Positions 21,541 through 50,509 of a stretch of 64,000 nt of DNA are shown here, piece by piece. The DNA lies in NCBI GenBank assembly GCA_021234155.1, contig JAJEKV010000003.1, forward strand, positions 29,557,166 through 29,621,165. Direction: 5' to 3'. The stretch comes from Isoetes taiwanensis (lineage: Eukaryota; Streptophyta; Lycopodiopsida; Isoetales; Isoetaceae). Under the pieces are notes generated by a model. The model was not told where the DNA came from and searched no databases. It was given only the letters and a program-made list of their open reading frames with translations. The position numbers and the translations under genes were made by a program. How positions within the stretch are numbered: position 1 is the first letter of the stretch; each line of letters begins with the position of its first letter.

Positions 21541-21553
21541 TTTTTACTGGAAT

Positions 21554-21974: not shown

Positions 21975-24900
21975 ATGGCTTCGTCCACTTCAGTTCCAAT
22001 TCCTGCTGATAACGATTATGCTGATGAACTAGTTATAATGAGCTCAAAATATATGAAAATCATCCAAGAGGTTGGGAAGGTAATAAGTTACCCAGCATTT
22101 CATTCATTTCTTCTTGTTTTGCTTTAATTACTTTGATTAAATTTTCTATACGAACGATTTTCACAGGAGCTGACTGATCATGTAGACCCTGCTCTGATAC
22201 AAGCAGCAATGGATGAGATATGTAAACTTTTTGGCAACGTACCAGTGGCCGGAATATGCGTCAGAGTTCTTCGTTTCATCAGCGTACAGGGCTTAGCTTT
22301 TTCTGAAAATACAAAGAAGAGGGAGCAGATTTTAAAGGATGCTGAGTTCCTTACAAGCTCTATTATGAAAATCTCATCTACTGTCGGGGACGATGTTGAA
22401 CTCCTTAGGGAATGCATGGCAACGCTCACTAAAGTGGCCTATGACATTAATTCTGAGAATTCCAGGTATGTCTTTATTTCTTTTTTGCAGAATAACTTAG
22501 ATGTTTTTGTAAGATTATACTTGGAGCCTGCCTGCTCAACAGTTTTTGGAATACCTTACTTGAGTTCGCTTCGCATATTTCTGTATAGAGCATAAACTAT
22601 ACTGTCGTGGTTCAGGAAAGAGGGTTTTTTTTTTTCTTTCTTTTAACAAGAAAAAGAGTTGGATGGATTAACCGAAACGGCTGTTTTGGTTCAGGAAACA
22701 GAAATGGGAAAGCTGCCTTTATGACTGTATGTGTGGTTTCATTAATGCCAAACGAGAGGCTAAGGTGTTTGATGGCATTAGCACCAAGTTAACAAAGATG
22801 AGGGAAAAAGTTTCCCTATTCTGTGAAAAAGAAATTCTGGTGCGTGTTGGAGATATTTCTAATCAGATCCCTACAATAAGTGCAGCCCCATTTGCGGATC
22901 CTGATATCAAGCTTGAGATGGAAGAAGAATTGCTGGCATTTATAAGGAAGCCAGAAATCAGAATCCTTGCTGTATGTGGGATGGGGGGAATTGGAAAGAC
23001 TACTTTGTTGCAGAAATTATATGACAACGAATTTTCAAAGGAAGGCAAGCAAGTGAAAGCTTTTGTAGAGGTGGGCATGAAAGCTAGTATAACGGAAAGT
23101 CAAAAGCAGATCTTGTGGGGATTGGAAAACAAAGCTGAGATATTCACAAACGCTCAGCAGGGTCGGAATGGACTGCGCGATTGCCTGCTACGTTTAAAGG
23201 CAAAGGGCTTTTCGTTGTGCCTATGCATCGACAACGTCTGGAAGACAAGAGATCTGAAGGACTTATTGCCATCAGATGTATATGATTGCCTTCCAGGCTC
23301 AAGCTGTGTAATGTTATCCACACGCTCCCAAAAGGTAGCTAATGCGGTTCGTGCACTTTGCACTCAACAAAATGCAAATGCATTTAGACTTTTTGAGCCC
23401 ACTGTGATGGGCATCCAAGAAGCAGAACAACTGTTCATGCATTGCGCACACATTGAGGATAAGAATAAGGAATTGAATCTGCTCAATGCAATAATTCCTC
23501 TGTGCGCTGGGCTTCCATTAGCAATCAAAACATACGGCACTCACTTTAGATTGCCAGAAAGGCGGACAGAAACATACTGGAGGGAAATCTTAACACGACG
23601 GATCTTGAATTGTGATGTTAACCCATCAAATGCGGATGACGAGGATGGTGAGGTTTTAGAATCGTTAGAACCCAGCATTGAATTTCAATCCAAAGATGTG
23701 CAAGATGCCTTCATCGATGCTGCTCTTTTCTGGCGTCGGAGACCAGTGGAAGAAGCTAGATATGCTCTATACGTCGGAGTTAATGATATTTTGCAAGTTT
23801 TATTGGACGAATCCATCTTTTATTCTAGGAAAGATGACTGGGGATTTACAATTCTAGAATGCCATGATCTATTTCTTCCTATTGCTCAAAAGCGCGCAAA
23901 CTTCAACAACTGGAAATATCTAGGGGCAAGTGCTTATCTGTTTATAGAAATGTCTCTCTTTTGTTTCAACTTTAATTTATTAACTTTCTTGAAAAATATA
24001 GTGGAGAGAAGCAATACCAGTAGGAATGGGACCTAGATTGGAAGAAATTCTTGAGGCAAGTGCTTATCTGCTTATAGAAATGCTTCTCTTTTGTTTCAAC
24101 TTTAATTTATTAACTTTCTTGAAAAATATAGATAAGACAAGCATTATCAAAAGGAATGGAAGGAATTCGCGGACTACAAGTTGATGAACTACCAATTCAA
24201 ACATTGCAGAATAAGCTATCATCTCTCAAGTACCTATATTGTGATGCTCCTTTTGGTCGTGTGTCTGACATCTCACAATGTGAAACGCATGATCTCAAGT
24301 TTTTGCAAATATCTCATCCCCTCGATTCAAATCATCTACATCTCCAGGTTTTCACTTTATCATCCCTCTTATTAGAAGAAGATATTAGATGTGTAAAAAT
24401 CAAGCTAACTAATTTATCTTCAATATTTGGGACAGTTTTTTTCAAAAATACAAGTCTTCATCATCCGTAAAGGCTTCCAATATGGAGTACACTCAACCTT
24501 GGTACGTAAGCTTACCTCTTTATTTGAAAATAATAGGAACTTGCTTGTCGTGGACATTGATGGAACAAACAGCACACTATCTAAGTTACCAGCCGCTTTT
24601 GGCAACATGGTGCATTTGCAAGTAATCAGATTTCGAAATTTCTCTTATTTGAACATGTTTCCTTCCTTTTCTAGGCCCTTGAGTTCAAAATGCCTTCACC
24701 TCTCGGGGTCCTCCCAAAGACGCTTTGCCCTGCCTCGGCCCACCATACGCCTGCGGAGCTCAACATCGCGGATGCTCCTAGCCGCCCACCGCTCGCCTTT
24801 CGCCTCATTTGCCCGCTCCGTCTCGACCTCTCAAAGTGCTGCTCGTGCTCCACCTTTGCCCGGAAGGCAGCTGATCATTTGCCGCCCTGCGGTGGCTCCA

Positions 24901-26002
24901 ACCTCAGGGGGTGCTACGACTTGGGCTGGCTGTTGTTGCCCGCCACGGAGGAGCTCCTCGGTGCTCCCGGCTTCGCCGCTTTGCCCGAACAAGCTCGGCC
25001 ATTTGCCTTCTAGCAGTGCTGTTCCGGGGAGTGCTCCCGGCTTCGCCCTTTGCCCGGCCCAGCGCTTCGGAACCCATTGCCCGCCCTACGTGCTGGTCGC
25101 CGGGGTGCTCCAATTTGGTCAGCCACCCGGCCAGCTTCGGTATTTGCCCATACTTCACGGTTGCTTCTGGCCCCTCACAGGACGCTCCGACCTTTGCTTT
25201 GCCCAAACAGCGCTTCGACGCATTGCCGCCTAGCGAGGCTTCGACCTGGCGGGGTGCTCCCGACTTCCTTTGCGTACGGCGGCGTACCCACCACTGCAGA
25301 GCTGACCTCGGGTGCTCCCGGCTCGCCGCCTTCCCGAACCTGGCGCTGGACAGCGCATACTGGAAGGCTCGACCTCTCGCGGGGTGCTCCCGGCTTCGCG
25401 CGCCTTCCCGGAAACTGGCTTCGGCCCATTTGCCGCCCTGCCGAAGGCCTCGACTCGGTTACTCTACGGCCGCTGCGCTTTGCCCAGGCTTCGCTTCGGC
25501 CCGATGCTGCCATCGCGGGAGCTCTACCGAGGTGCCTCGGCTACGCCCACGCCCGACTTCGCTCGACCCCATTTGCCTTCGCGGCTGACCGATGCCTCGG
25601 TGCCGACTGCTGCTTCCTTGCGGAATCGTTGACGCGCCCCTTCTGTGGCGGCAGGCCTCGGGTGCTTCCCAACTCTCACCCCTTTCATCAGGGCACTGCG
25701 GCGATTCCCTCGAGGCGGCATTTACTTTTGGCGCTGGACTTTTCGTGGCTTATGCTCGGGTTATTTCTTTCGCCTGCGTGGCGGCTCGATGTCTCGAAGT
25801 GCTCCAAGCTTGCCGACCTCCCAACGCGCTCGAAGCGCTGCTCGCCTTGGAGGTGCTCCGCATCATGTGGTGCTTCTAGCTCTCCTGCTTGCTCGACGCG
25901 CTCAGCACGCTGCCCGCTGTGGAGGAGCTCAACCTCTCGAGGTGCTCCCAGCTCCCGCGCCTGCCCGAGGCGTTCGTCGTTAGATTCCCTTGGCTTAAGT
26001 AA
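21975..26002 (+). CDS. NLR immune receptor (NLR-1): helical N-terminus, NB-ARC, LRR; LRR frame disrupted
   Basis: NLRs sense pathogen effectors and switch by ADP/ATP exchange. Exons read from splice sites: 21,975-22,079; 22,167-22,465; 22,695-23,925; 24,002-24,055; 24,132-24,347; 24,436 onward. Exons 1-5 join in frame. Residues 1-~190 are helical without TIR signatures (MASSTSVPIPADNDYADELV). NB-ARC: P-loop GMGGIGKTT at ~229, Walker B LCLCIDNVW at ~308 (N where DD is usual), RNBS-B GSSCVMLSTRS at ~335, GLPL at ~406, and ECHD in place of MHD at ~523. Linker and first LRR-like segments follow (VHLQVIRFRNF; CLHLSGS). From ~24,690 a GC-rich degenerate LRR block loses frame. A TAG after MWCF (~25,876) is shared by all copies, and the last LRR ends in RFPWLK and a TAA at 26,000-26,002. 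It is probably a pseudogene in the LRR, or an assembly of a difficult GC-rich repeat. The start is the only in-frame ATG after the TATA that gives a sensible N-terminus. Confidence 0.8.
23926..24131 (+). other. Tandem exon-intron duplication with GC-AG introns in NLR-1
   Basis: Introns 23,926-24,001 and 24,056-24,131 are both 76 nt. Both start GCAAGTGCTTATCTG instead of GT and end AAAAATATAG, and they are nearly identical. The small exon between them (24,002-24,055; REAIPVGMGPRLEEILE) is an in-frame partial copy of the start of the next exon (IRQALSKGMEG). The same arrangement occurs in NLR-3 (introns 39,696-39,771 and 39,838-39,913, exon 39,772-39,837). GCAAGT is the normal form of the rare GC donor class, so splicing is plausible. 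Confidence 0.7.
24690..25985 (+). repeat. GC-rich degenerate LRR block of NLR-1
   Basis: This block is strikingly GC-rich compared with AT-rich sequence on both sides. It is made of imperfect repeats of about 72 nt based on CTCGACCTCTCGGGGTGCTC, i.e. LDLSGCSRL, the consensus strand of a plant LRR. Phase shifts between repeats are frequent. Equivalent blocks lie at 31,690-32,985 and 40,480-41,630. Confidence 0.75.
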
Positions 26003-26067
26003 TGTATAAAACTAGCCCCAAGGAAGTGACCCAACATATGCATGATAATACAAAATTGTTTAGTTAT

Positions 26068-28741: not shown

Positions 28742-29257
28742 AAAGGGAAGATTCATTTCTTCCCTGATAATAATTACACCAGGTTCGCCGCTATAAAATC
28801 AAAGCAGACAGGTCTGATCAGCAATGAGACAATGGACTTGGTGAAGCAGGGGTTGAATGTAATTACACATGGTCCATGCAAGTGTATTTTTTGTCTGATT
28901 CTGCACATGGAGCACCATATGCAGGCCAAGCATACAAGTTCTGAATTCATAGAATGGGTGGCAAGTTCCCGAGGGGACACTGATGGGGTAAGTTTTGCTG
29001 ATATGCATTTGGTTTTTTGTTCTACAAACATCTAATGAATCCCCACTTGCAGGCTTCATTCACAGGTGATAAATCAATTGTTTGCTGGTAGCGATAGAAG
29101 ACAGATTGATGTCATCAAGAGCAACATGGTTCTGAAAGTGCAGACTCCTAAAGTGTCTCGACAGGAGGACATTACCAATTGTGGGCTCTATGTCATGGCC
29201 TACATGGACATGTTTCTAGAAGACCTCACGTGTCGAGGAGCGGCAATAAGTTTATAA
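28742..29257 (+). pseudogene. Ulp1-like (C48) cysteine protease relic, copy 1
   Basis: After an acceptor-like TATAG, the reading KIHFFPDNNYTRFAAIKSKQ leads through ETMDLVKQGLNVITHGPCKC and EFIEWVASSRGDTDG to VSFADMHLVF. A second segment reads RQIDVIKSNMVLKVQTPK, then RQEDITNCGLYVMAYMDMF and LE. The last segment carries the oxyanion Gln and the nucleophile Cys context (Q...NCG) of Ulp1/SENP proteases, which cleave SUMO-like tags and are often carried by plant MULE and CACTA transposons. The catalytic His-Trp region between the two segments is not found and a stop lies between them, so it is dead. It ends at a TAA at 29,255-29,257. Confidence 0.6.
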
Positions 29258-31325
29258 ACTGTTTTCCTATATGTGTAGAGATGTATTTGCTGCCATGCTA
29301 TGGCAGCATGGAAGAGCAAGACACACTTCATATTCTCATGCTCATGCTTTGATTTGAACTCAAACATACAAGGAGGATGCATCTTTGCACACTTGGAAAA
29401 CTTGAAGAGCAAAGTGAGGACATTTGACTCAGGTCACACAAGCAAGTCATGAAGATGAATCAAGCATGTTTGAAGATTTGAAGACCCCTTGAAGAGTTCT
29501 TGGTATGTGATGCTACTATTCGAGTTCTTGGCATAATTACATTCTTTGATTCCCATATTATACCCTCCACACCCTTCACATGAAGATATACTCATGAGAT
29601 CCCAAGTTCCATGCCTACATTTCATCTCCCAAGTCAAATTTGGCCTTGAAGATTTTTTCTAGTCAAAACTTCTCCTTTACATGTCATTCACATTCCACAA
29701 ACTTGCCATGCCATCACCATTTCATTCAAGCACAAAAACTTCACTTGACTTGGTCATACGACATGGTCAAAGTTCAACTTCCTCTCTCTACAAGTCAAAG
29801 ATGAGAGAGAATGCAAAAATTCCTAAGGGAAGCATCTAAAGTCAAAATTTGCCTAGAAAATGCAAATTATATGCATTGATGCTTAAATTGACCTATCACA
29901 ACACTCAAAAGAATCCAAGTCACCATACATGTCATCCACATTGCCATGTCATACCATGCACATGTCACCCCATTGAAATTCTATTTTGCAAAAGTTCTTC
30001 AAATTACATGGTTAAATCCATAAGAGAGACACATCATCATGCCACATCATCACCAACACCTCCACATCATCATCCACATGTCATACACATCATGTCCACC
30101 TCATCCAAAGTTTTGACTAGAAAAAAATATTCTTAGCCAAGTTGTTTGACACCTCACCACCATTGTTTGCTATGTCACCCTTACGTTGCCAACTCATCAT
30201 GCCCCCATGCCACGTCACCTTCGATATACACCTTTTTAAGGCCGAAATCCAAAAGTGTTCATTTGCAAAAAAGATTCTGGCATCTTCTAGAGCATAAAAA
30301 AAGGTCCTTTTGCAAAAAAGAAAATAAAAAAAATCGTTCATTTTGGCCCTCAAATATAGCTTCTTGGGAATCGTGCCTTAGCCTATTTTGCAAAAAAAAA
30401 ATTCCTACCCCCAAAACCTAGATTCCTTAGCCACTCACCCCCTGCCACGTGGAACATCCAAGCATGTGTGGCAGTGGAAGTACCGAGGCCCACGTGGACA
30501 TTACAAGTAAATCTCAATAATATTGGATTTATTTTTTGTTATATACCCTTGTCTTCCAGATCGAATTGGATCGGTGGGATATTTCATCAGAAGTGCCAAG
30601 AACCCTAAATACGGGAAATGCCAAGATCCGTCTAATTCGCCCGAAACAACCATGCAATCATGACTCTAAGCTGCCGAATTATCTTGTAAATGTCAAAAAT
30701 GCATCACGGAGGCAAAAAGACAGAGAATCAAACCGAATTAGCCAAGAACGGAACAAAACATGGAATCTTTTAAAAGGGGCTTTTGTACTCAGAGAAATTC
30801 TGAGGGCTTTGAGGTGAAAGAGAGATTGATTACCTTGAAGAAGGACCGGCTCACATATTGGGAGCTTGATTCTGCCTTCTAGACCTGATACTTTGCTTGA
30901 ATTATTGATAAATTCATGCTATTTCTTTGATTGTGTACCTATTTGATCCTGTGCCTAAGACTTAGAGCTTGCGATTGATATTGTTTGCCTGTATGAACCT
31001 GATTTAAATGAAAATTCGAGCCTTGTTGTCAAATTTATGAGTATTTCCTATCGATCTTGTGACGGAAGTTATTCTCCTTGCATTATTTTACCTTTGCACA
31101 TCATTCTGAGCAAAAGAGAAGTAGAAGCATTGCATTTAGACACCCTGAAGACAAGCATATGGATGCAATATTTGCTTGATTAATTGAAATAGATCTGAGC
31201 CTAGCTCCACATTTTCACATTGCTCAAATAGTATTCACCAATTCATAGGCAAGTCATGGTAGGCATAGATATTGCATGAAAAGGCAAAAAAAAGTGCACT
31301 TAAACTCCCAGCAAACCCAGATTTC

Positions 31326-32991
31326 TCTGCTCAATCCAAGTCATCTCCAGGTTTTCACTTTATCATCCCTCTTATTAGAAGAAGAATTAGATGTGTAAAA
31401 AATCAAGCTAACTAATTTATCTTCAATATTTGGGACAGTTCTTTTCAAAAATACAAGTCTTCATCATCCCTAAAGGCTTCCAATATGGAGTAGAATCAAC
31501 CTTGGTACGTCATCAGCTTACCTCTTTATTTGAAAATAATAGGAACTTGCTTATCGTGGACATTGAAGGAAGCAACAGCAAACTATCTGAGTTACCAGCC
31601 GCTTTTGGCAACATGGTGCATTTGCAAGTAATCAGATTTCGAAATTTCTCTTGCTTGAACATGTTTCCTTCCTTTTCTAAGCCCTTGAGTTCAAAATGCC
31701 TTCACCTCTCGGGCTCCCCAAAGACGCCTCGCCCCCCTGCGACACGCCGCCCCATCAGCCTCACCTGCGGTGCTCGACCTCTCGAGAGTGCTCCCGGCTC
31801 GCCCACCTTCGCTTCTGCCCCCCCTTTTGCCTCAGAACTCAACCTCTCAATGTGCTCCCACCACCCGGCTTTGCCACGCTGACCGGCCTGACCGCCCGCC
31901 CTGTGGCTCAGCCTCTCATGGTGCTCCGGCTTCGCCCACCGCGGCGCTTCGGCCCGGCTGCCGCTCTACTTGGCCTCAACCTCTCGAGTGCTCCCGGCTT
32001 CGCCCGGCACCTTTATGGCCTTCGAAGCCCGGCTACGCTACCTGGGGCTTCGTCCTCTCGGGGGTGCCGGCTAAGCCCTCTTTGCCCAGGCTTCGCTTCG
32101 ACGCTGGGCTTCGGCCTCTTGGTGCTCCCGGCTAAGCCCATCACTTGGGCTAAAACAGGCATTTAGCCACTCGAGGAGCTCAACCACCTGGCGGGGGTGC
32201 TCCCCGGCTTCGCCTTTGCCCGAAGCCTTCGACCAGTACGCCACAGGCGCTCGGCCCCTCAGTGCTCCCGGCTTCGCGCACGCCCGGCCTTTTCGGCCAT
32301 TGCCGCCCTGCCAGTTCTGTACCCTCTGGGGCACTCCCACGGCCTCGCCCCTTTGCGGCTTAGCGCTTCGGCCCAGCTGCTCGCCCCTAGAAGGCTTTCG
32401 ACCTCTGAGTGCTCAAAGCTTCGCCGCTGCCGGCGCTATTGTACGCCCTGCCCAGCTTCGACCTCTCGGGGTGCTCTCGACTCTCTCCGGCACACTTGCG
32501 GCCTTTTCGGCGCTCTGCCCGCGCCCCGAAGGAGCACCGACCGGGGTCGCTGATATCACTGCTCAAGGCCCTCCTTGGTAAATTCCACGCTTGCACAGTG
32601 GCCTGGATTCTCAACTTTTAGGTGACATGCTTTCCGGCCCTCTGCTCGCCACATTGGCGACCTCGGTGCTCCAAGCTACAGGCACGCCTTGGCAGAACGC
32701 TGCAGCCTGAGTGCTCCACCTCGTGTGGTGCTTCTAGCTCTCGCGCTGGCGACGCCGAGCACGCTTAGCCGGCGGAGGAGCTCAACATCTCGAGGTGCTC
32801 CCAGCTCCCGCGACGCGCTCGGAGCACTGCCCGCCCTGGAGGTGCTCCACCTCATGTGGTGCTTCTAGCTCTCCTGCTTGCTCGACGCGCTGAGCACGCT
32901 AGCCGCTGTGGACGAGCTCAACATCTCGAGGTGCTCCCAGCTCCCGCGCCTGCCTGAGGAATTCGTCGTTAGATTCCCTTGGCTTAAGTAA
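31326..32991 (+). pseudogene. NLR-2: 5'-truncated NLR (LRR part only)
   Basis: The join to unit copy 1 falls at CTCTGCT/CAATCCAAG. From there the sequence follows the end of NLR exon 5 (AAGTCATCTCCAG), its intron (GT...GGGACAG), and exon 6 from 31,439: FFSKIQVFIIPKGFQYGVES, then RNLLIVDIEGSNSKLSELPA and VIRFRNFSCLNMFPSF. The GC-rich LRR block then loses frame as in NLR-1 but with quite different repeat content. The end is shared (MWCF, TAG; later LPRLPEEFVVRFPWLK, TAA at 32,989-32,991). It has no N-terminus or NB-ARC and no promoter. Confidence 0.8.
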
Positions 32992-33725
32992 TGTATAAAA
33001 CTAGCCCCAAGGAAGTGACCCAACACATGCATGATAATACAAAATTGTTTAGTTATTATAGTATGTTATACACACATTCACCAGTTTTTAACCTTTAACA
33101 TTATGATGCAATGTCTTACGCATAACTAAGAAGCCATTGTGCTTGTATATTAGTCAAGTGGTTTTTTTTTCTTTTATTAAGATAGATTTTATTTCAATAT
33201 GTGCTCTCTAGGATTTGCTGTGGAGTGGAAGAAAGACTAGGTGGTGGTTGTGGTTAAATACTGCAATCCACTATGTTTGCTTCATTTACTTGAGAATACT
33301 TCAAATACTATTCATTTCTATTCTTAGTGTTATGTAGATTTAAACGTGGGAATTTGATTCACGTCCAAGACATTTTCCGTGTGCTATCATGTGTCAAGTC
33401 AAACATACCTAGTTACACTATCAGTGTCACAATATTATACCATATAATTGTTTATTACCATCTATATTAGCACTGCTTGATGTTTAGTAAAAAAATAAGG
33501 GCAAACAATGGGAGAAGGGGGCACTGAGGTGAAGAACGAGAGTGCCAACTTATCAAACTTGGCCAAGACTCCGCATTATATCTTGGGGCTTATGACATGT
33601 TAAAAGCAAGAAGTTTCTTATCATGTCTTGGTCTGCATATCAATGCATCGTTGTCTGTTATGTCATATTCGACTTGGTAAATTTGTTACCTTTTGGTGGA
33701 AGCAAGCCAAAGCCAGTGTTGCGTT

Positions 33726-34711: not shown

Positions 34712-35220
34712 AAAGGGAAGATTCATTTCCTCCCTGATAATAATTACACCAGGTTCGCCGCTATCAAATCAAAGCAAACAGGTCTGATCAGCAATGAGGC
34801 AATGGACTTGGTGAAGCAGGGGTTGAATGAAATTATACATGGTCCGTGCAAATGTATTTTTTGTCTGATTCTGCACATGGAGCACCATATGCAGGCCAAG
34901 CATACAAGTTCTGAATTCATAGAATGGGTGGCAAGTTCCCGAGGGGACACTGATGGGGTAAGTTTTGCTGATATGCATTTGGTTTTGTGAACATCTAATG
35001 AATCCCCGCTTGCAGGCTTCATTCACAGGTGATAAATCAATTGTTTGCTGGTAGCGATAGCAGACAGATTGATGTCATCAAAAGCAACATGGTTTTGAAA
35101 GTGCAGACTCCTAAAGTGCCTCGACAGGAGGACATTACCAATTGTGTGCTCTATATCATGGCCTACATGGACATGTTTCTAGAAGACCTCAAGTGTCGAG
35201 GAGCGGCATTAAGTTTATAA
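34712..35220 (+). pseudogene. Ulp1-like protease relic, copy 2
   Basis: Same two segments as copy 1, with KFVPD-type start HFLPDNNYTRF and QGLNEIIHGPCKC. The active-site segment reads VPRQEDITNCVLYIMAYMD, so the glycine after the nucleophile Cys is changed to Val. The catalytic His region is absent here too. It ends at a TAA at 35,218-35,220. Confidence 0.6.
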
Positions 35221-37270: not shown

Positions 37271-39065
37271 TTGTGACAGTCACTCATTCAAAAAATCAAA
37301 ATCTCAAAAGAGTTGGCCTTATTTTGCAAAACACAGTGTGGAACATTGTGTGCAGACATCTTAGAGGAAGATCAATGCATCAGATCTCAAAAAGAGACCA
37401 CCTGCATCGAGTTTGAAAATTCCGCTCTCTGCCAGGGACATTGACCAAAAACTGACTTGGTCAGGAGTGCTTATTTGAAAAATCTTCCCTCATTAAAATC
37501 CTTCTGACTTTTGGCCTAAGATACTTCAAGGTCTTGTGCAGCTTTAGAAACAAGAATCATGATCAAAATCCCTTTGGTTTGCATTTGAGATAAATTCTTG
37601 CAAGGCAGACTTTTTTTCCTTCAGGGAAGGCTATTTTAATCAATTGCTTGAGCATTCTTTTTGGATTTTTCTCACTCAGAGTGGTTGCCTCAAGCAACCT
37701 GGAGGTTCTAAACCACTGCGGTTGAAGGTTTGCCAGGAACACCTTCAACATTTTGGAGGTTCTACCGACATCTTTTCCTGGAGTTTGAACTCATGGCTCC
37801 TAGGAGAACAAATGAAAGATCACAGGAGAATCATGAAGCCTCTGCTGCGTCACTTACTTTGACTATACAAGCAAACTCAGGTATGCCTTGTCATTACATT
37901 GAGTTGAATATGCCAATTCCTGTTCCTACTTTTGATCCAAGCATGAATGCTAACAATTTTCTAGAAACTTTTGAGGAGTATTACCAAGAATACACAAGAA
38001 AGGTTGCAAATTCTCTGAGTTTAAAAAATGTTTCAAGAATGATGAGGTTAGAGCTTGACTTGAGTATGTTATGCATTTAGGAGCTAACTCCTGGGATGAA
38101 TTGGTCAAGAAACTTGGCAAGGTTTGGTAAGCTTTTGGATCTTCAGGATTTGATTTTTGAACTGCAAACCTTTCATATAAAGCATGGTGAGAGTGTTCAC
38201 CAATATGTGGAAAGGTTTAATCTTTATCTTGTCAAGTGTCAGATTAATCAAGTTCCTAACCATACTTTGCATCTTGTGGCATCTTTTATCAGAGGTTTAA
38301 GTAGTAGACCAAGAATACACAAGAAAATGCTCAAGATCCGAAAACAAGAAGGCCACAATACATAAGGCTTTCACTAAAGCTACTGAAATTACAGATATGA
38401 TTTCTTACTTACCAGATGATATGCACTCACCTCATGATCCTTTTTTTTTTTTAGATTATGAACAAGAATACATGGGACCAGGACCTGTACCAGTTTATGT
38501 TATTCAAAAGGAGAAGAAAAAGACAAAGATGGAGGATGCTAAGGGTCCTGTAGCAGATGTGAAAGCTGAGATTACCAAAGTGTCAGAGGCCTTAGTCGAG
38601 GTGACCAAGCAACTCCAAGAGATGAAGAACTCCAAATTTGAAAAGAAGATTTATCCACCTTGAGCTCGTTGTTCAAGAAATTCTCATTCCTCTCATTACT
38701 GCTGCTATAGGCCTTGTACAAAATGTGGTAAAAGGGGGAATTTTGGTAAGGAATGCCCTGTATGTGCCTTTTGCAAAGCTGTGGAACATTATGAAGATAG
38801 GTGTAGTGTAAAGAAATATTTTGCTAGGCAGGAAAAACCTAAGCCTAATGAACCAAATGCTTCCATCAGATTTGTGCAGGAAATTGAAGAACAGGAGGAG
38901 ATTGTAGATGTGCATACTAGAGGAATGAACAATGCAAAAGGAAAGGAGTTAGCACGAGCTAATGAGGAAGTCAATGCTATAAAACACAAGGAAGTTGATC
39001 AAAATATGGTTGTACCTCCTCCCCCTGCTTAGAAATATTTGAGAAAGGATAAAGATAGTGAGTAT
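37271..39065 (+). mobile_element. Ty3/gypsy fossil, leader and gag part (copy A)
   Basis: A leader of about 520 bp is followed by gag. The gag start is near 37,794 (MAPRRTNERSQENHEA), with a retrotransposon-gag core (NNFLETFEEYYQEYT; LIFELQTFHIKHGESVHQYV; FNLYLVKCQINQV), an acidic/coiled segment (VSEALVEVTKQLQEMKNSK), and a Cys/His knuckle region around 38,690-38,820 (CTKCGKRGNFGKECPVC). The 2 kb before it (second half of the downstream unit) may be its LTR. It is broken, with several breaks, and ends abruptly against NLR-3 at about 39,066, so protease, reverse transcriptase and integrase are absent. It is similar to copy B at 45.9-49.7 kb, so the pair spread by local duplication rather than by independent insertion. 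Confidence 0.7.
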
Positions 39066-41640
39066 TTTGAGTATTTGAAACGCTCCCAGAAGGTAGCTAA
39101 TGCATTTCGTGATATTTGCACTCAACCAACTGCAGCTGCAAATGCATTTAGACTTTTCGAGCCCACTGTGATGGGCATCCAAGAAGCAGAACAACTGTTC
39201 ATGCATTGCACACAAATTGAGGATAAGAATAAGGAATTGAATCTGCTCAATGCAATAATTCCTCTGTGCGCTGGGCTTCCATTAGCAATCAAAACATACG
39301 GCACTCACTTTAGATTGCCAGAAAGGCGGACAGAAACACACTGGAGGGAAATCTTAACACGACGGATCTTGAATTGTGATGTTAACCCATCAAATGCGGA
39401 TGACGAGGATGGTGAGGTTTTAGAATTGTTAGAACGCAGCATTGAATTTCAATCCAAAGATGTGCAAGATGCCTTCATCGATGCTGCTCTTTTCTGGCGT
39501 CGGAAACCACTGGAAGAAGCTAGATATGCTCTATACGTCGGAGTTAATGATATTTTGCAAGTTTTATTGGACGAATCCATCTTTTATTCTAGGAAAGATG
39601 AGTGGCATAATGAAACATATCTTCTAGAATGCCATGATCTATTTCTTCCCATTGCTCAAAAGCGCGCAAACTTCAACAACTGGAAATATCTAGAGGCAAG
39701 TGCTTATATGTTTATAGAAATGTCTCTCTTTTGTTTCAACTTCAATTTATTCACTTTCTTGAAAAACATAGATAAGACAAGCATTACCAGAAGGAATGGA
39801 AGGACTTCGTGGGGAAGAATTGGAAGAAATTCTTGAGGCAAGTGCTTATCTGCTTATAGAAATGCTTCTCTTTTGTTTCAACTTTAATTTATTAACTTTC
39901 TTGAAAAATATAGATAAGACAAGCATTACCAGAAGGAATGGAAGGAATTCGCGGACTACAAGTTGATGAACTACCAATTCAAACATTGCAGAATAAGCTA
40001 TCATCTCTCAAGTACCTATATTGTGATGCTCTCATTGGTCGTGTGTCTGACATCTCACAATGTGAAAAGCATGATCTCAAGTTTTTGCAAATATCTCAAT
40101 CCCTCGATCCAAGTCATCTCCAGGTTTTCACTTTATCATTCCCTCTTATTAGAAGAAGATATTAGATGTGTAAAAAATCAAGCTAACTAATTTATCTTCA
40201 ATATTTGGGACAGTTCTTTTCAAAAATGCAAGTCTTCATCATCCCTTACGGCTTCCAATATGGAGTAGAATCAACCTTGGTACGTCATCATCTTACCTCT
40301 TTATTTGAAAATAATAGGAACTTGCTTATCGTGGACATTGATGGAGGAAACACCGAACTATCTGAGTTACCGGCTGCTTTTTGCAACATGGTGCATTTGC
40401 AAGTAATTAGATTTCGAAATTTCTCTTGCTTGAACATGTTTACTTCCTTTTCTAAGCCCTTGAGTTCAAAATGCCTTCACCTCTCGGGATCCTCCCCCGC
40501 CCCTGACCACCACCGCCTCGGCCTCTCCGCCATACCTGGTGCTCGATCTCTCGGTGCTACCGGCCGGCCCTTTGCCCGTCGCGCTTTCGGCCCTCATGCA
40601 GCCACTGAGGCGGCTTAACCTCTGCGGTGCTCCGGCTTCGCCCGCCTTGCCCCGCCGCCCCGGGCAGCCCCCCTCCCCGGGCCTGGCTCGGCCTCTCGGG
40701 GTGCTCCCGGCTTCCTGCCTGTCCCCCTTTGCCCCTCACGGCTTCGACCTCTCGGGGGTGCACCCGGCTTCGCCCGCTTTGCCCAGCCAGCTTTCGGTCC
40801 CGGCGCCACTGCGGCGGCTTCGACCTCGGGGTACTCCCGCTCTCGGCCTGCCCGGCCAGCGACCCCGGCCGTACTTTCACGCCCTCACGGGGCAAACCTC
40901 TCGGTGCTCCCGGCTTCGCTTCGCTGCAGGCGTGCTGACGACTCGACCTACAAAGGGTGCTCCGGCTTCGCCCTTTTGCCCGAGCAGCGCTTGGCGTTGC
41001 CCTTGAGGTACTCCCTCCCACCGTGGGTACTCCCGGCTCTCCGATACGCTTTCGGCAACAGCGGATTGCGCATACAGCCAGGATGAGCCTCTCGGGGGTG
41101 CTCGGCCTCGCCTTGCTTCACGCGCTCTGACGTTGCCCTTCCTGGCGTACCATCTCTCGAGGGTGCTGTTCGCCTTTGCCGGCTTTCTTCCGGCGGACGC
41201 GACACAGGGTGCCACTCCTGGGTGGAACGCTGACTCTCCGGCCTCCCGGCCTCCCTCGGCACCCTGCCCGCCCTGCGACGGCTCGACCTCTCGGGGTGCT
41301 CCCAGCTATCCTGCCTATCCGAGGCCCTCCTTGTTAAATTCCCTCGGTATTTTGCTTGCACTGGCGCTCGTTCGAGCTTTTAGTGGCTTATGCTCGGCCC
41401 ATTGCTTTCGCCATGCAATGGCGGCTTCGATGTCTCAGTGCTCAAGCTTGCTCACACGCCCAAGCGGCTTCAGTCTTTGCCCCACTGGAGGTGCTCCGCC
41501 TCATGTGGTGCTTCTAGTTCTCCTGCTTGCTCGACACGCTCAGCATGCTGCCCGCTGTGGAGGAGCTCAACCTCTCGAGGTGCTCCCAGTTCCCGCGCCT
41601 GCCCGAGGTGTTCGTCATTAGATTCCCTTGGCTTAAGTAA
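39066..41640 (+). pseudogene. NLR-3: 5'-truncated NLR (half NB-ARC plus LRR)
   Basis: The NLR sequence starts inside exon 3 at RSQKVANAF, just after RNBS-B. The P-loop and Walker B are therefore absent and it cannot bind nucleotide normally. GLPL (CAGLPLAIKTYG) and the CHD motif (LLECHDLFLPIAQKRA) are present. Exon 3 ends at 39,695, and two 76-nt GC-AG introns flank a 66-nt exon (IRQALPEGMEGLRGEELEEI, then LE), longer than the NLR-1 version. Exon 5 starts at 39,914 and exon 6 follows the GGGACAG acceptor at about 40,213. The GC-rich LRR block (40,480-41,630) is out of frame. One of its better repeats is LRRLDLSGCSQLSCLSEALL near 41,275. It ends in RFPWLK and a TAA at 41,638-41,640. An open frame from 39,039 runs from retroelement sequence into the NLR part. 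Confidence 0.8.
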
Positions 41641-43371
41641 TGTATAAAACTAGCCCCAAGGAAGTGACCCAACACATGCATGATAATACAAAATTGTTTA
41701 GTTATTATAGTAGTATGTTATATACACATTCACCAGTTTTGAACCTTTAATAACATTATGATGCAATGTCTTACGTTTAACCAAGAAGCCATTGTGCTTG
41801 TATATTAGTCACGTAGTTTTTTTTATTTTATTTTATTAAGATAGATTTTGTTTCAATATGTGCTCCTAGGATTTGCTGTGGAGTGGAAGAAAGACTAGGT
41901 GGTGGTTGTGGTTAAATACTGCAATCCACTATGTTTGCTTCATTTACTTGAGAATACTTCAAATACTATTCATTTCTCTTCATAGTGTTATGTAGATTTA
42001 AACGTGGGAATTTGATTCACGTCCAAGACATTTTCCATGTGCTATCATGTGTCAAGTCAAACATATCACCTTCCATGTGACCCCACTAATTATGCCTATT
42101 CGCAATGAGTAACTTTTGTTCAAAATCAAATTCTTGAAAGTTGAATGCTAATTACACCTTCAGTGTCACAATATTATACCATATAATTGTTTGTTACCAT
42201 CTATATTAGCACTGCTTGATGTTTAGTAAAAAAATAAGGGCAAACAATGGGAGAAGGGGGCACTGAGGTGAAGAACGAGAGTGCCAACTTGTCAAACTTG
42301 GCCAAGACTCCGCATTATATCTTGGGGCTTATGACATGTTAAAAGCAAGAAGTTTCTTATCATGTCTTAGTCTGCATATCAATGCATCATTGTCTATCAT
42401 GTCATATTCGACTTGGTAAATTTGTTACCTTTTGGTGGAAGCAAGCCAAAGACAGTGTTGCGTTCAAGGCAGATATAGGTTGCAAATGAATTAGAGAACT
42501 AGTTCTCAAATGGAGTTAAGCAAGAGAAGCGAAACCTCTCGAGTTTGGAAACCTTTTCAAAGGACCGTTTTCTATTGCTGAAGAAGCTGGTATGAATTCT
42601 TATTGATTGTAAATACACAACCAACATTCTTTATTTGAAGATATCCTACCAGCAACATGTACCCTTAAGTTTATTTGCTTAAAAATGTTGCTTAGGTATT
42701 AGTAATTAGTGTTATACATTTTTGGTTTTGTGCATTACATTTTATTTTTGGCATTGTTTTATTCTAAAAGGCTAAAAATTCATTTAAGCATTCTATTAAC
42801 ATCAGATTGCATTGACAAAACTATGAAGTCGCTAACCTCTTGTTATGGTCGCTTAAAATTCAAGTTGTGTGATAATGTTCTATTCATCTTCCTATGAGTT
42901 GTTCTTCTATCCATTTCCCTTTGTTTCTTTTTACATTTTTCTCCTGCAAAAGCTACAACTCACTATTCTATCAAATCGCTGTCATTATCTTTTTAACCCT
43001 ATTTTGTTTTCCATGTATAGGGTCAACTGCGTATCTTTCTTTATTCATATTTTCTTTTCCTCACCTCATTCTCCTAATTCTATTGTTATACTATATTTTC
43101 TTTTTACATTTTTCTCTCGCAAAAAAAATTATTTCGTCAATTGACAGCACTTGATGTCATGTTTTCGTTACAGGTTCACCTGATTATGCTTCATTCATAT
43201 TGTCATTTCTCATCTCATTTATCTATTTTCCATCTTAAACTACAATTCTTTTACAATTTTCTCTTGCAAGGGTGACATGATTCTATGTTTCCATCTACAG
43301 GTTCACTTGATTATAATTCATTTATATCTCCATCTTGCTGATATTTATATAACAGACTCCCTTCTGTATAG

Positions 43372-43872
43372 AAAGGGAAGATTCATTTCTTCCCTGATAA
43401 TAATTACACCAGGTTTCCCGCTATCAAATCAAAGCAGACAGGTCTGATCAGCAATGAGGCAATGGACTTGGTGAAGCAGGGGTTGAATGAAATTATACAT
43501 GGTCCGTGCAAGTGTATTTTTTGTCCGATTCTGCACATGGAGCACCATATGCAGGCCAAGCATACAAGTTCTGAATTCATAGAATGGGTGGCAAGTTCCC
43601 GAGGGGACACTGATGGGGTAAGTTTTGCTGATATGCATTGGTTTTGTGTTCTACAAACATATAATGAATCCCCGCTTGTAGGCTTCATTCAATTGTTTGC
43701 TGGTAGCGATAGCAGACAGATTGATGTCATCAAGAGCAACATGGTTCTGAAAGTGCAGACTCCTAAAGTGCCTCGACAGGAGGACATTACCAATTGTGGG
43801 CTCTATGTCATGGCCTACATGGACATGTTTCTAGAAGTCTTCAAGTGTCGAGGAGCGGCAGTAAGTTTATAA
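43372..43872 (+). pseudogene. Ulp1-like protease relic, copy 3
   Basis: Same protein segments as the other two copies. Here an open frame of 136 codons (43,462-43,872) runs through both halves: DLVKQGLNEIIHGPCKCIFC, then RGDTDGVSFADMHWFC and VPRQEDITNCGLYVMAYMD. The nucleophile Cys and oxyanion Gln are kept. The usual HW-containing segment between them is still missing, so activity is not expected. Confidence 0.6.
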
Positions 43873-45419
43873 ACTGTTTTCCTATACGTTAAGAGATGTA
43901 TTTGCTGCCATGCTATGGCAACATGGAAGAGCAAGACACACTTCATATTCTTATGCTCATGCTTTGATTTGAACTCAAATGCACAAGGAGGATGCATCTT
44001 TTCACACTTTGAAGACTTGAAGAGCAAGGTGAGGACATTTGACTCAGGTCACACAAGCAAGTCATGAAGATGAATCAAGCATGTTTGAAGATTTGAAGAC
44101 CCCTTGAAGAGTTCTTGGTATGTGATGCTACTATTTGCGTTCTTGGCATAATTACATTCTTTGATTCCCATCTTATACCCTCCACACCCTTCACATGAAG
44201 ATATACTCATGAGATCCCAAGTTCCATGCCTACATTTCATCTCCCAAGTCAAATTTGGCCTTGAAGATTTTTCTAGTCAAACCTTCTCCTTTACATGTCA
44301 TTCACATTCCACAAACTTGCCATGCCATCACCATTTCATTCAAGCACAAAAACTTCACTTGACTTGGTCATACATATGGTCAAAGGTCAACTTCCTCTCT
44401 CTATAAGTCAAAGATGAGAAAGAATGCAAAAATTCCTAAGGGAAGCATCTAAAGTCAAAATTTGCTTAGAAAATGCAAATTATATGCATTGATGCTTAAA
44501 TTGACCTATCACAACACTCAAAAGAAGCCAAGTCACCATAAATGTCATCCACATTGCCATGTCATACCATGCACATGTCACCCCATTGAAATTCTATTTT
44601 GCAAAAGTTCTTCAAATTACATGGTTGAATCCATACGAGAGACACATCATCATGCCACATCATCACCAACACCTACACATCATCATCCACATGTCATACA
44701 CATCATGTCCACCTCATCCAAAGTTTTGACTAGAAAAAATATTCTTAGCCAAGTTGTTTGACACCTCACCACCATTGTTTGCCATGTCACCCTTACATTG
44801 CCAACTCATCATGCACCCATGGCACATCGCCTCCCATATACACCTTTTTAAGGCCAAAATTCAAAAGTGTTCATTTGCAAAAAAGATTCCAGCATCTTCC
44901 TGAGCATAAAAAAAGATCTTTTTTGCAAAAAATAAAAAAAAAAAAAAACGTTCATTTTGGCCCTCAAATATGAATCGTGCCTTAGCCTATTTTGCAAAAA
45001 AAAAAATCCTATCTACCCCCCAAAGATTTATTTTTGTTATATACCCTTGTCTTCCATACCGAATTGGGCCGGTGGGATATTTCATCAGAAGTGCCAAGAA
45101 CCCTAAATCCTGGAAATGCCAAGATCCGTCTAATTCGCCCGAAACAACCATGCAATCATGACTCCAAGTTGCCGAATTATCTTGTATAATGTCAAGAAAT
45201 GCATCACAGAGGCAAAAAGACAGAGAATCAAACTGAATTAGCCAAGAACGGAACAAAACAGGGAATTTTTTAAAAGGGGCTTTTGTACTCAGAGAAATTT
45301 CGAGGGCTTTGAGGTGAAAGAGAGATTGATTACCTTGAAGAAGGACCGGCTCGCATATTGGGAGCTTGATTCTGCCTTCCAGACCTGATACTTTGCTTGA
45401 ATTATTGACAAATTCATGA

Positions 45420-45444
45420 TAAAGGCTCAAGTCCTTCAAAAAAA
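45420..45444 (+). mobile_element. 25-bp retroposed scrap with 10-bp target duplication
   Basis: Compared with units 1 and 2, copy 3 has an extra TAAAGGCTCAAGTCC-TTC-A7 flanked by AAATTCATGA at 45,410-45,419 and 45,445-45,454. An A-tail and a ~10-bp target duplication are the marks of LINE-type target-primed insertion of a very short 3' end. Confidence 0.6.
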
Positions 45445-45880
45445 AAATTCATGATATTTCTTTGATTGTGTACCTATTTGATCCTGTGCCCAAGACTTAG
45501 AGCTTGGGATTGATATTGTTTACCTGTGTGAACCTGATTTAAATGAAAATCCGAGCCTTGTTGTCAAATTTATGAGTATTTCCTATCGATCTTGTGACAT
45601 AAGTTATTCGCCTTGCATTATTTTACCTTTGCACATCATTTTGAGCAAAAGAGAAGTAGAAGCATTGCATTTAGACACCCTGAAGACAAGCATGTGATGG
45701 ATGCAATATTTGCTTGATTAATTGAAATAGATCTGAGCCTAGCTCCACATTTTCACATTGCTCAAATAGTATTCACCAATTCATAGGCAAGTCATGGTAG
45801 GCGTAGATATTGCATGAAAAGGCAAAAAAAAGTGCACTTAAACTCCCAGCAAACCCAGATTTCTCTGCTGCTCACTTTTT

Positions 45881-48800
45881 GTGACAGTCACTCATTCAAA
45901 AAATCAAAATCTCAAAAGAGTAGGCCTTATTTTGCAAAAAGCAGTTAGGAACATAGTGTGCAAACATCTTAGAGGAAGATCAAAGCATCAGATCTCAAAA
46001 AGAGACCACATGCATCGAGTTTGAAAATTCAGCTCTCTGTCAGGGACATTGACCAAAAATTGACTTGGTCAGGAGTGCTTATTTGGCAAATCTGCCCTCA
46101 TTAAAATCTTTCTGACTTTTGGCCTAAGATACTTCAAGGTCTTGTGCAGCTTTAGAAACAAGAATCATGATCAAAATCCTTTTGGTTTGCATTTGAGACA
46201 AATTCTTGCAAGGCAGATTTTTTTTTCCTTCAGGAAAGGCTGTTTTAATCAATTGCTTGAGCATTCTTTTTGGATTTTTCTCACTCGGAGTCGTTGCCTC
46301 AAGCAACCTGGAGGTTCTAAACCACTGAGATTGAAGGTTTGCCAGGAACACCTTCAACTTTTTGGAGGTTCTACCGAGATCTTTCCTGGAGTTTGAACTC
46401 ATGGCTCCTAGGAGAACAAATGAAAGATCTGAGCATGCTGAAGCAAAGGAGAATCATGAAGCCTCTGCTGCAGCACCTACTGTGATTATACAAGCAAACT
46501 CAGGTATGCCTTGTCATTACTTTGAGTTGAATATGCCAATTCCTGTTCCTACTTTTGATCCAAGCATGAATGCAACCATCATTCATTTAAATTCGGATTA
46601 TGTCATAATTTTTAGAATTTTGAATACGGAAGATTTGCGTGCGTTTTACTGAAATTTTCTTGTTTTCAGAAAACGCGTTTCCCGCCCGCCCTCAAAAAAT
46701 TCCCCCCAAAATTTTTCCTCTCTACGCGTTTTGGCTTTTCTCAAAACGCGTCCCGCCCACTTTTATATTTCTCTTTACATTTCTTTTCCTGATGGCGCTG
46801 CCCTAAAATAGCGAAGCGGCCCCAAAAGGGCAAAGCTTTGCTTCCGGCTACATTCTCATCTCCGGCTGTGGCTCTGCTACACTTTCGGCTGTGGCTCTGC
46901 TACTGCTCTCAATCTTGCTGAGGTAAGTAGCCCTTTCCGGATGATTTGATGTTAGTATTACATGCATACAATATTCTGACTTGATGCTTTGTTGAACAGG
47001 GTATGGAGATAACAAAAGGGGTCGCTGAGAGGTCGCTGGAAGGTAGCTGTTCTTCATTTCTGGCATCTAGAACTCCATAAAGTACGCTTTCACAGTACCT
47101 TACAAAGCTTATTAGGTTTCTGATAATGGCCAGGACTTCTATATCCTCAACTAGTTTCTTATTCTAACAGGTGGAGCTCATTTCGGAAATCTGCTGCAGA
47201 ACTGTGATGAAGCTTCGATAGGAGATGCATTTGCTCTATGTCTCTCATAGCTTCCATTCTCGAAAGCAATCGAAGCTCTTGATAATATTTCTTCTTCTCC
47301 TTGCCCAATGCAGTGCATATTTTGCTGGCAGGGATTCAAAGTGCCAAATTAGTTTCCAAGCATTCAACTGCAGTGAATAGCATTGTAAAATGTTTTTCAA
47401 GGGTTAATGCAAGCATCCAATAGCTTCCATACTACTTCCAGACCGTCAGATTGGAAGTTCCATGCTACTCTGGCTTTGGAGAAGCATTTTAACAGTTTCA
47501 AGCTTAAAGATTTTAAGAAAGACTTGGATCAAATAGCTTCTTCATCTATCAGTGCTATTTTATAGTTAATAAAGGCAAGACTGATTTTGTGCTGTAAGTA
47601 TATATGATCCCCTGCAGATTGTAAATTGAAGCGTGCTTAGTATTGAAACGACAGATATGGTAAGATAGAAATGCTTTGAGCATGGGTTTACTTCTGCTTA
47701 TAAGGTGAATGAAAGGAAAAAGCCATAAGATGTTAGTGCGCTCTAAGATGAATGGCAAAAGCCCTAAGATGTTCTACAGAATTATCTGCCCTTTGCTGGA
47801 AAGGGTGAAGAAACAGGGGTTTAGAACTCCCTGCAGTTTTCACACAGCTTGAGAAATTGCGCCAGGCGCGATTTAACACGGACGCCACTTATCAAAATTG
47901 TTTATTTTAAAGCATTTATAGAAACGTCAGTTACTAAAATTGTCTACTTTAAAGCATTTTTGTAAGGCAACTCATTTATTAATTGTATAGATATTCCAAT
48001 TTTATTGGCCTAAATACCATAACTCTAGATTTAAATTTGTTAAAAAGAAGTGAATATTGAAGCAATATTATTTTTATGTATTGTAATATTTGCTTGATTT
48101 CGTTAAGTAAGTGTTATTTTGTTGTGAAGTTGTGATGTTAATTTCAAGCAAATAAGTACCTTATTTAAAGTAAATATGAAAAAATAACTATATATGCAAC
48201 ATACACTACACTTTTTAAATGCCAAAAATAGAATTGAAAAAACACTAGATGCCCTAAAAATAACGCTTATTTGGCGCGATTTTGGAACAGACATAATCCC
48301 AATTTAATTGAATGATGGTTATGCTAACAATTTTCTAAAAACTTTTGAGGAGTATTACCAAGAATACACAAGAAAGGTTGCAAATTCTCTGAGTTTAAAA
48401 AACGTTTCAAGAATGATGAGGTTAGAGATTGGCTTGAGTATGTTATGCATTTAGGAGCTAACTCCTGGGATGAATTGGTCGAGAAATTCTTGGCAAGGTT
48501 TGGTAAGCTTTTGGATCCTCAGGATTTGATTTTTGAACTACAGACCTTTCATATAAAGCATGGTGAGAGTGTTCACCAATATGTGGAAAGGTTTAATCTT
48601 TATCTTGTCAAGTGTCAGATTAATTAAGTTCCTAACCATACTTTGCATCTTGTGGCATCTTTTATCAGAGGTTTAAGTAGTAGACCAAGAATACATAGGA
48701 AAATGCTCAAGATCCAAAAACAAGAAGGCCACAATACATAAGGCTTTCACTAAAGCTACTGAAATTACAGATATGATTTCTTACTTACCAGATGATATGC

Positions 48801-49725
48801 ACTCACCTCATGATCCTTTTTTTTTAGATTAAAATATTTTGCTAGGCAGGAAAAACCTAAGCCTAATGAACCAAATGCTTCCATCAGATTTGTGCAGGAA
48901 ATTGAAGAACAGGAGGAGATTATGGCTGTGCATACTAGAGGAATGAACAATGCAAAAGGAAAGGAGCCAGCACGAGCTAATGAGGAAGTCAATGCTATAA
49001 AACACAAGGAAGTTGATCAAAATATGGTTGTACCTCCTCCCCCTGCTTAGAATATTTGAAAAAGGATAAAGATAGTGAGGACGCGCTCGGCCCGCTATCT
49101 AAAAGTTCTAAAATCGGTGTTGACTTGCTAACTCTGCTCAAGATAGCTCCATCCTACAGGAAAAAGGTGCTCAATTTGACCAAAAAAGATGAGTTTGCTC
49201 TAACTAATCATATTGAGGAACACATGCTTACTTAGGAGGATTATGACCCAGGGGCTTTCAGTTGTGTTGCCAGACTGGGCAAGAAAATCTTGACCAAGTC
49301 CTATTGGATGAGGGATCACCTCTGACTATGCCTCATCATGTCATGAGATTGTGTGGCCTTGAGATAGATAAGAAAGCTCCAATGGTTTTAAAATCTTTCT
49401 CAAACACAAAGATTAGCCATGTAGGAATAGTCAGCAATGTATCTATTGATGTTGAGGGTATAATTGTTGCAGCTAACTTTGTTGTCGTTGCTTTTGAAGG
49501 GATAGAAGACAAGTCAGACATTTATGATCTACTTTTGGGAAGGAAATGGCTTTCTACAGTTGATGCCAGGCCTGTTTGGTCAAAAGGAAAATGCACTATT
49601 TCCAATGGTAAGAAAAAGGTAACATTATACAATAAAGTTGGGGAATTTGAGGCCTTAAATTTTATAGAAGAAGAAATGCTGTTGTCAAACCCATGTGGAG
49701 AATTTGAATTAAATGCAAATATGTA
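45881..49725 (+). mobile_element. Ty3/gypsy fossil, leader, gag and protease part (copy B)
   Basis: The leader matches copy A. The gag start is near 46,401 (MAPRRTNERSEHAEAKENHE), and the gag continues after a DNA-transposon insertion (46,574-48,320) with WDELVEKFLARFGKLLDPQD and FNLYLVKCQIN. A retropepsin-like part follows at about 49,262-49,726 (DQVLLDEGSPLTMPHHVM; SDIYDLLLGRKWLSTVDA), typical of Ty3/gypsy protease. It is broken, with several breaks. Reverse transcriptase and integrase do not follow; dispersed repeats begin at about 49,726. It is similar to copy A. Confidence 0.7.
46574..48320. mobile_element. 1,747-bp TIR DNA transposon (non-autonomous) inside the gag fossil
   Basis: The ends are inverted: AACCATCATTCATTTAAATT at the left and its near complement at the right (TTAATTGAATGATGGTT), about 31 bp with two mismatches. 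ATGC occurs at both sides (46,570-46,573 and 48,321-48,324), while the uninterrupted site in copy A has it once (CATGAATGCTAACAATTTTC). This gives a 4-bp target duplication. The interior has no transposase. It has CpG-rich stretches (AAAACGCGTTTCCCGCCCGC near 46,670) and otherwise AT-rich sequence. A 4-bp duplication excludes hAT (8), Mutator (9), CACTA (3) and Harbinger (3). The superfamily is undetermined. Confidence 0.8.
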
Positions 49726-50164: not shown

Positions 50165-50261
50165 GTAGCAAAATAACTGGGGGTTCTAGGGGGATTTGAT
50201 ATCGATGTAAAAATAAAAATTCTTGAAACCATAGACCATATATCCCTAAAACAATTGAATT

Positions 50262-50490: not shown

Positions 50491-50509
50491 ACAGGGGGTT
50501 CCAGGGGGA

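Follow-up and report, generated by a model that had tools for sequence, protein, structure and literature searches.

A duplicated NLR-Ulp1-retroelement unit with two non-homologous joins in the lycophyte Isoetes taiwanensis

The window, a stretch of 64,000 nucleotides of Isoetes taiwanensis DNA (C1034:29557166-29621165), was compared with itself and with the genome assembly (1,658,258,908 bases in 1110 contigs). Self-BLAST (hits >100 bp) revealed three collinear units, U1 (21976-31331), U2 (31332-39077), and U3 (39080-49721), whose identity to each other was ~92-97% over kilobases, far above chance. Among the tracts, alignments joined 27842-31331 of U1 with 33803-37261 of U2 (93.6%, 3.5 kb), 27136-30415 of U1 with 41755-45024 of U3 (94.5%, 3.3 kb), and 36452-37950 of U2 with 45025-46573 of U3 (92.8%). 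In each unit, the 3' end of an NLR receptor gene was followed by a 3' flank, a Ulp1-like relic, and the long terminal repeat (LTR) of a retroelement; gag came afterwards only in U2 and U3. The original prediction, made from the sequence, had claimed three collinear units repeating the order NLR, flank, Ulp1, LTR, and gag. The three units were borne out, and their order held through the LTR, but U1 has no gag, and the run Ulp1-LTR-gag occurs only twice; as an observation, the prediction was thus partly confirmed, with corrections. No Ns were found in the window. The v1 assembly was described as based on ONT R9.4.1 reads with miniasm, racon, and pilon, Bionano scaffolding, and gap filling by LR_Gapcloser (PMC8566536), a history that bears on the trust to be placed in joins and in GC-rich stretches.

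The receptor, Ulp1, and element parts all lie on the forward strand. The NLR of U1 (21976..26005) retains a full 5' end, with an ATG at 21976 and a 5' flank common to two related units elsewhere in the genome, A and B (BLAST of the window vs fetched regions), with which it is collinear. Reading the frames, with exon limits judged by eye, placed an NB-ARC exon at ~22695-23924, exon 5 at ~24438-24672, and a GC-rich LRR exon, its frame broken, up to ~26005. The NB-ARC domain was recognized by a Pfam search (PF00931, E=6.9e-21), and matches in the PDB included Sr35 (4.5e-8) and RPP13-like protein 4 (1.8e-6). In U2, self-BLAST and frames delimited a remnant (31332..33000) made of the final ~19 nt of the exon preceding exon 5, exon 5 itself, and the LRR block. 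The remnant of U3 (39080..41644) starts in mid exon 3, near the end of the NB-ARC domain, and continues through exons 4-5 and the LRR block; its first base corresponds to U1 position 23322, within exon 3, and its partial NB-ARC match (E=3.6e-4) was below the Pfam cut-off. These truncation points, with U1 complete, U2 starting at exon 5, and U3 in mid exon 3, are those originally predicted. Judged as a plant NLR, U1 possesses the NB-ARC domain and lacks an open LRR domain. Purifying selection on exon 3 was considered and set aside, the dN/dS between U1 and A being ~0.7 (dN 0.056, dS 0.076), so that constraint is weak at most. The copies in the window are NLR genes or relics that, from their reading frames, look mostly defunct as receptors.

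The LRR exon has a GC content of 64-68%, and was frame-broken in 6 of 6 units with LRR motifs hopping between frames; its counterparts in the related genes L030 and L031 look broken as well. U3 and B were ~97-99% alike on both flanks, yet the 600-800-bp LRR block between them was largely unalignable. When the U3 block was used as an 821-base query, no close match was found elsewhere in the genome, and a gene-conversion donor was rejected, since, of 16 matches, the 15 that were not the block itself covered only 35-186 bases at 71-95%. On the same scaffold, a related array (L033) with a GC content of 52% was open over 488 aa. The scrambled exon is possibly an assembly fault in GC-rich repeats, which is the reading that we favor. 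It is very improbable that the block is true sequence rather than nanopore consensus error and was scrambled, far faster than its surroundings, by a targeted, LRR-confined hypermutation or reshuffling in this lycophyte; in that case, the same break-prone DNA could also have given rise to the LRR-derived patch in U3 gag (see below). Be it artefact or biology, conclusions drawn from the LRR exons of this assembly need reads.

The Ulp1-like (C48) relic occupies 28742..29260 in U1 and 34712..35230 in U2, frame-broken in both, and 43372..43869 in U3, where a single 166-aa frame, homologous to the U1 relic, is open. Its match to Peptidase_C48 was weak (E=0.01, 16.1 bits) and below the Pfam cut-off of 20.7. 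U3 is the exception; the relic was frame-broken in the five other units of six. An NLR-Ulp1 fusion protein was rejected, because the relic is broken in those five units, is positioned past a broken LRR exon, and is also present in three 4-kb stretches (L025, L026, and L027) without an NLR match in them.

The element beside the receptor is a Ty3/gypsy-type retroelement with a ~2.45-kb 5' LTR, which begins directly after the Ulp1 relic. Judged by the starts and ends of genome copies, this LTR extends over 29288..31331 in U1, where it is cut at the first join (J1), 35251..37741 in U2 (end approximate), and 43903..46358 in U3 (end approximate, 46348-46360). Its 5' edge was located with a query made of the U3 relic and its right flank, for which the best 40 of 563 candidates were scored. 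Among the 41 matches listed, 5 covered the whole query (U1, U2, U3, A, and B), 13 were inside the relic with none extending past query position 553, and 23 elsewhere began at positions 551-554 and reached or nearly reached the query end. Since 23 matches start at this point and none of the 13 goes beyond it, the edge of the element was placed at 43903 (29288 in U1, 35251 in U2). Three loci that carry the relic (C, L025, and L027) matched exactly to the edge at 43902/43903 and L026 ended 54 bp short of it, with no element match after. At the other end of the LTR, 6 of the 43 genome matches listed stopped at 46348 or 46358, and one genome copy (L028) retained portions of two LTRs that are 94.1% alike over 1321 bp. 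Sharp boundaries and, in L028, a second LTR in the element were thus found through the genome copies, and the copies in the window keep the 5' LTR only. The predicted LTR was confirmed by the edge in the 23 genome repeats and by the double LTR parts of L028.

In U3, the LTR is followed by a stretch read from the sequence as a primer-binding-like site and leader (46363..46400), with TGGAGG at 46363, which we take to be of the tRNA-Gln type. The gag ATG is at 46401, and gag with a protease-like remnant extends over 46401..49721, the point to which L028 matches. The Retrotrans_gag domain (PF03732) was detected in U3 (1.6e-9) and, just below the Pfam cut-off, in U2 (8.4e-5), so the element has the gag domain of a Ty3/gypsy-type retroelement; a Ty3_capsid match (0.013) was below the cut-off. 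The U2 gag (37793..39077), with a zinc-knuckle-like stretch seen by eye, is frame-broken and cut at the second join (J2), and L028 and L029 matched the U2 element up to 39077. No Pfam match was obtained for the protease-like stretch of U3, which was seen by eye, and the window copies end before the reverse transcriptase. The gag that had been claimed for all units was therefore found in U2 and U3, while U1 ends inside the LTR (31331, equivalent to U3 45869). The U3 gag is without ~355 bp present in U2 and is interrupted by a transposon-like insert of 1747 bp (46574..48320), which has 31-nt terminal inverted repeats and a flanking target duplication of 3-4 bp, ATG(C), and whose site is uninterrupted in U2.

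At J1 (31328..31335), the LTR meets the end of the exon that precedes exon 5 of the NLR, with 2-4 bp shared. Its breakpoint, set by eye, is at ~31331/31332, where the LTR ends in ...TTTCTCTGCT and the NLR continues with CAATCCAAGTCATCTCCAGG; 2 bp are shared, or 4 if one GCT may contract, and 8 bp were lost between short repeats. J2 (39077..39080) connects gag to mid exon 3 with 0-2 bp shared and ~2 nt of filler; by eye, its breakpoint is at ~39077/39080, where gag ...GAGTATTTG is followed by about two A's and then by exon 3 ACGCTCCC. Abrupt joins had been predicted at 31,325/31,326 and 39,065/39,066; they are indeed abrupt, but the true sites lie 6-14 bp farther right. A genome search that allowed up to 3 mismatches gave a single place for each join. 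Both have the retroelement on the left side and the NLR on the right side, but at different element sites (inside the LTR at J1, in the downstream part of gag at J2) and at different NLR sites. Identity is lost abruptly and without a homology tract at both, as at junctions of the non-homologous end joining (NHEJ) type. The 0-4 bp shared and the two different sites support the view that the joins were made by end joining rather than by homologous exchange.

A homologous unequal exchange in which LTR or gag copies of the element paired, as the wording of the prediction might also be understood, would be in keeping with the element DNA on the left of both joins and with the many relatives of the element (the best 40 of 2783 and the best 40 of 1694 candidates were scored for two queries). 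It would, however, give seamless element-element junctions, whereas both joins run from element to NLR, share 0-4 bp, and use two element sites; moreover, the window matches to the element copy L028 all fell within U1-U3. The join sequences are inconsistent with exchange between LTRs, and we consider any such homologous exchange extremely improbable. Because the element and NLR sites differ and the partners have no homology, the element appears to have been the place of the breaks and not a substrate of homology. The original prediction had proposed unequal or illegitimate exchange with breakpoints supplied by the retroelement; it is partly supported, in that the joining is non-homologous, and unsupported in so far as element repeats would have mediated an exchange.

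It is also conceivable that one or both joins are assembly artefacts, with real but dispersed copies brought together by gap filling or in a chimeric contig. The ONT R9.4.1, miniasm-based, and gap-filled assembly (PMC8566536) and the error-like noise in the LRR exon and in the 5' half of B speak for such a fault. On the other hand, the window is free of Ns, each copy has its own substitutions and thus represents a distinct locus, and the flanks beside the joins are clean. In 200-bp comparisons, the mismatch was 0.5-3.0% in four of five cases (left of J1, 2.5% for U1 vs U2 and 0.5% for U1 vs U3; right of J1, 2.0%; left of J2, 3.0%); in the fifth case, to the right of J2, U3 and B had 19 differences in 200 (9.5%) at a place where B itself looks noisy. 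We regard artefactual joins as unlikely.

Related units were identified by BLAST against fetched regions. Unit A is located at C1034:29.338-29.350 Mb, with its NLR ~240 kb upstream of the U1 NLR and in the same orientation; unit B, which retains the NLR 5' end, is on another scaffold (C974:15.379-15.388 Mb); and locus C, on C867, has NLR and Ulp1 without an element match. An NLR query (9 candidates scored) gave 15 matches, all at A, B, C, or the window, or, for one weak match, on C951. The possibility that B is the window's allelic haplotype was rejected, because in 40 kb the matches were confined to the unit and a single short repeat (hits of at least 100 bp). A further 5'-truncated NLR fragment was noticed ~0.95 kb after A; it is split by a ~30-kb insertion that, by eye, has CACTA-like ends and an AAT duplication.

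U3 and B were sisters in all 6 segment trees (UFBoot 94, 93, 90, 87, 98, and 88), the sixth of which was built on a distorted alignment. In the first five segments, the K2P distance between U3 and B was 0.013-0.028, vs 0.034-0.068 between U1 and U3; in the four segments that U2 has, U1-U2 distances were 0.037-0.040 and U2-U3 distances 0.033-0.041. The sixth segment (S5) was distorted by the 1747-bp insert of U3, which made its 16-23% distances to U3 wrong, and it was redone piecewise. The leader then gave 2.7% for U3-B and 5.0% for U2-U3, and gag was equidistant (U2-U3 2.6%, U2-B 2.3%, U3-B 2.6%). The concatenated tree united U3 and B with a UFBoot of 100, and its other nodes were weak (35-42). 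AU tests were run under TN+F+G4, the tree model chosen by BIC being HKY+F+G4. Three arrangements that group U1, U2, and U3 without B were rejected (p 8e-14, 7e-9, and 3e-72), and ((U1,U2),(U3,B)) was compatible with the data (p=0.44). A sister relation of U1 and U2 was allowed but unfavored (p 0.44 and 0.16, vs 0.80 for the best tree), and a U1-A pair was allowed (p=0.13). A 4-bp gag deletion common to U2, U3, and B and not found in A, L028, or L029 suggests that A lies outside U2, U3, and B. The 5' half of B is more divergent than its remainder (K2P 0.113 to U1, 0.130 to A, and 0.171 to C, vs 0.064 for U1-A). This divergence is clustered in bursts, which extend beyond the J2 point as far as ~23,520 (U1 coordinates); we read it as noise or decay, the alternative being a separate origin.

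The idea of one locus amplified three times is too simple: U3 is closest to a unit on another scaffold, one more unit lies ~240 kb upstream, and neighbors are not each other's closest relatives, as they would be in a simple tandem array. From anatomy alone, the most economical history would be two successive tandem duplications with one non-homologous join each, first from exon 3 to gag (J2) and then, within the first copy, from exon 5 to the LTR (J1). The anatomy of U1, U2, and U3 would follow exactly and no deletion would be necessary, with the NLR 5' end only in the first copy and the element past the J2 point only in the last. Such a history nevertheless predicts that U1, U2, and U3 group without B, which the AU tests reject and which the U3-B pair contradicts in all 6 segment trees (one on the distorted alignment); in addition, B has the NLR 5' end, which under this history U3 would have lacked from the start. 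We thus judge two tandem duplications unlikely.

We consider it fairly probable that non-homologous repair acted on a duplicated NLR-Ulp1-retroelement unit. The Ty3/gypsy-type element would have inserted directly after the Ulp1-like relic downstream of the NLR, and the composite of 5' flank, NLR, Ulp1 relic, 5' LTR, and gag would have been copied several times in a short period, giving A, the window units, and B. Two separate non-homologous repair events in the window would then have produced the truncations. J1 would most simply be one tandem duplication of the stretch from exon 5 to mid-LTR, after which U1 retains the complete 5' end and U2 the complete 3' end. Since B, the sister of U3, has the NLR 5' end, the ancestor of U3 most likely had it too, and a later deletion or an ectopic copy is then a likelier origin of J2 than the join of a tandem duplication. 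In the first case, the end of the U2 element and the front part of U3, until then full-length, would have been lost; in the second, a B-like template would have been joined to a broken U2 gag, as modelled for the common bean Co-2 cluster (PMC6102362). Several points weigh against this non-homologous repair history. The joins could reflect assembly errors. The U1-U2 pair predicted by the tandem model of J1 is allowed but unfavored in the AU tests, and over the 200 bp that end at J1, U1 differs less from U3 (0.5%) than from U2 (2.5%). The poor match of U3 to B in the first 200 bp after J2 (19/200) and the equidistance of gag likewise tell against it, a separate history of the B 5' end might weaken the J2 argument, and the sister relation of U3 and B could be imitated by gene conversion.

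U3 gag also carries a small scar. A patch of 17-20 bp (49080..49099, forward strand), at the position homologous to J2, is derived from an LRR: its bases 49080-49096 are the LRR-coding 17-mer GACGCGCTCGGCCCGCT, which recurs exactly in the A and B LRR blocks (4 of 29 loci, as two overlapping pairs) and expected 0.00 times in window shuffles. A 26-mer of patch and gag context had a single genomic match when up to 3 mismatches were allowed. The 251 bp around the patch matched 39 other scored places at 83-90% (the best 40 of 466 candidates were scored), and L028 and L029 have ordinary element sequence at the patch position. Two NLR-derived scars in neighboring copies, within ~16 bp of one element position, point to one shared event or to a break-prone spot. 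The spot homologous to J2 may therefore have been broken twice, which counts in favor of the predicted role of the element.

Comparable NLR systems have been described in other plants. In the account of the Co-2 NLR cluster of common bean, segmental duplications have several junctions with abrupt identity loss assigned to NHEJ and one assigned to homologous recombination, LTR retrotransposons are many and solo LTRs frequent, and in the model an ectopic donor invades a recipient that has been broken (PMC6102362). The Isoetes array resembles Co-2 in its NLR segmental duplication, NHEJ-type junctions, and LTR retrotransposon DNA, but differs in its few copies and in a unit that combines a 5' LTR-gag remnant with a Ulp1 relic. 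For NLR copy-number variation in cacao, which involves tandem and proximal duplicates, a role of transposable elements was considered; according to that report, a link with them was absent genome-wide and the pattern was consistent with unequal crossing over, which its authors did not test (PMC12405883). Isoetes shares the neighboring NLR duplicates with cacao, whereas both of its joins are non-homologous. An account of non-angiosperm CC-NLRs of ferns and lycophytes, including a Cbl-N group, used Isoetes sinensis (PMC12512272), and the window likewise holds an NB-ARC NLR in a lycophyte. Our literature search found no lycophyte case of an NLR cluster changing by non-homologous repair. The array is a new example of ordinary NLR-cluster evolution, and it offers a clear and small lycophyte example of such a cluster growing and breaking by non-homologous repair. 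Adjacent truncated copies need not be closest kin; here it is phylogeny, not anatomy, that argues against the simplest tandem duplication.

The GC-rich LRR exon was scrambled and frame-broken, with sharp edges, in the NLR copies of the three collinear units of the window (U1, 24675-26005; U2, 31680-32990; U3, 40455-41640), and likewise in A (the related unit ~240 kb upstream), B (a unit on scaffold C974) and C (the NLR and Ulp1 locus on C867). In contrast to the exon itself, its flanks were ~90-99% alike between copies. This scrambling represents either assembly error or real hypervariability. A 130-bp tandem duplication in the U1 NLR (23913-24159), common to U3, A and B, looks like a doubled small exon with a GC-AG intron, judging the splice sites by eye.

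Upstream of the U1 NLR, a ~5.4-kb stretch missing at A (16251-21669) was bordered by direct repeats (77%; 16130-16301 and 21669-21859). Downstream of A, an NLR fragment was interrupted by a ~30-kb insertion with CACTA-like ends and an AAT duplication (C1034:29351281-29381540, loci L011-L015). The U3 gag contained a 1747-bp insert (46574-48320) with 31-nt terminal inverted repeats and a 3-4 bp target duplication, ATG(C), for which U2 provided the uninterrupted site. It also carried an LRR-derived patch (49080-49099) at the site homologous to the U2-U3 join, and this patch with its gag context occurred once in the genome. The right end of the U3 element was adjoined by a separate repeat family (AATATGTAGCAAAATAAC...; 49718-52310 and 56742-57098).

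Besides U1, U2, U3, A, B and C, the Ulp1 relic (28697-29287 in U1) had 11 further family places among the scored genome matches (75-87% identity), and all three relatives inspected (L025, L026 and L027) were frame-broken.
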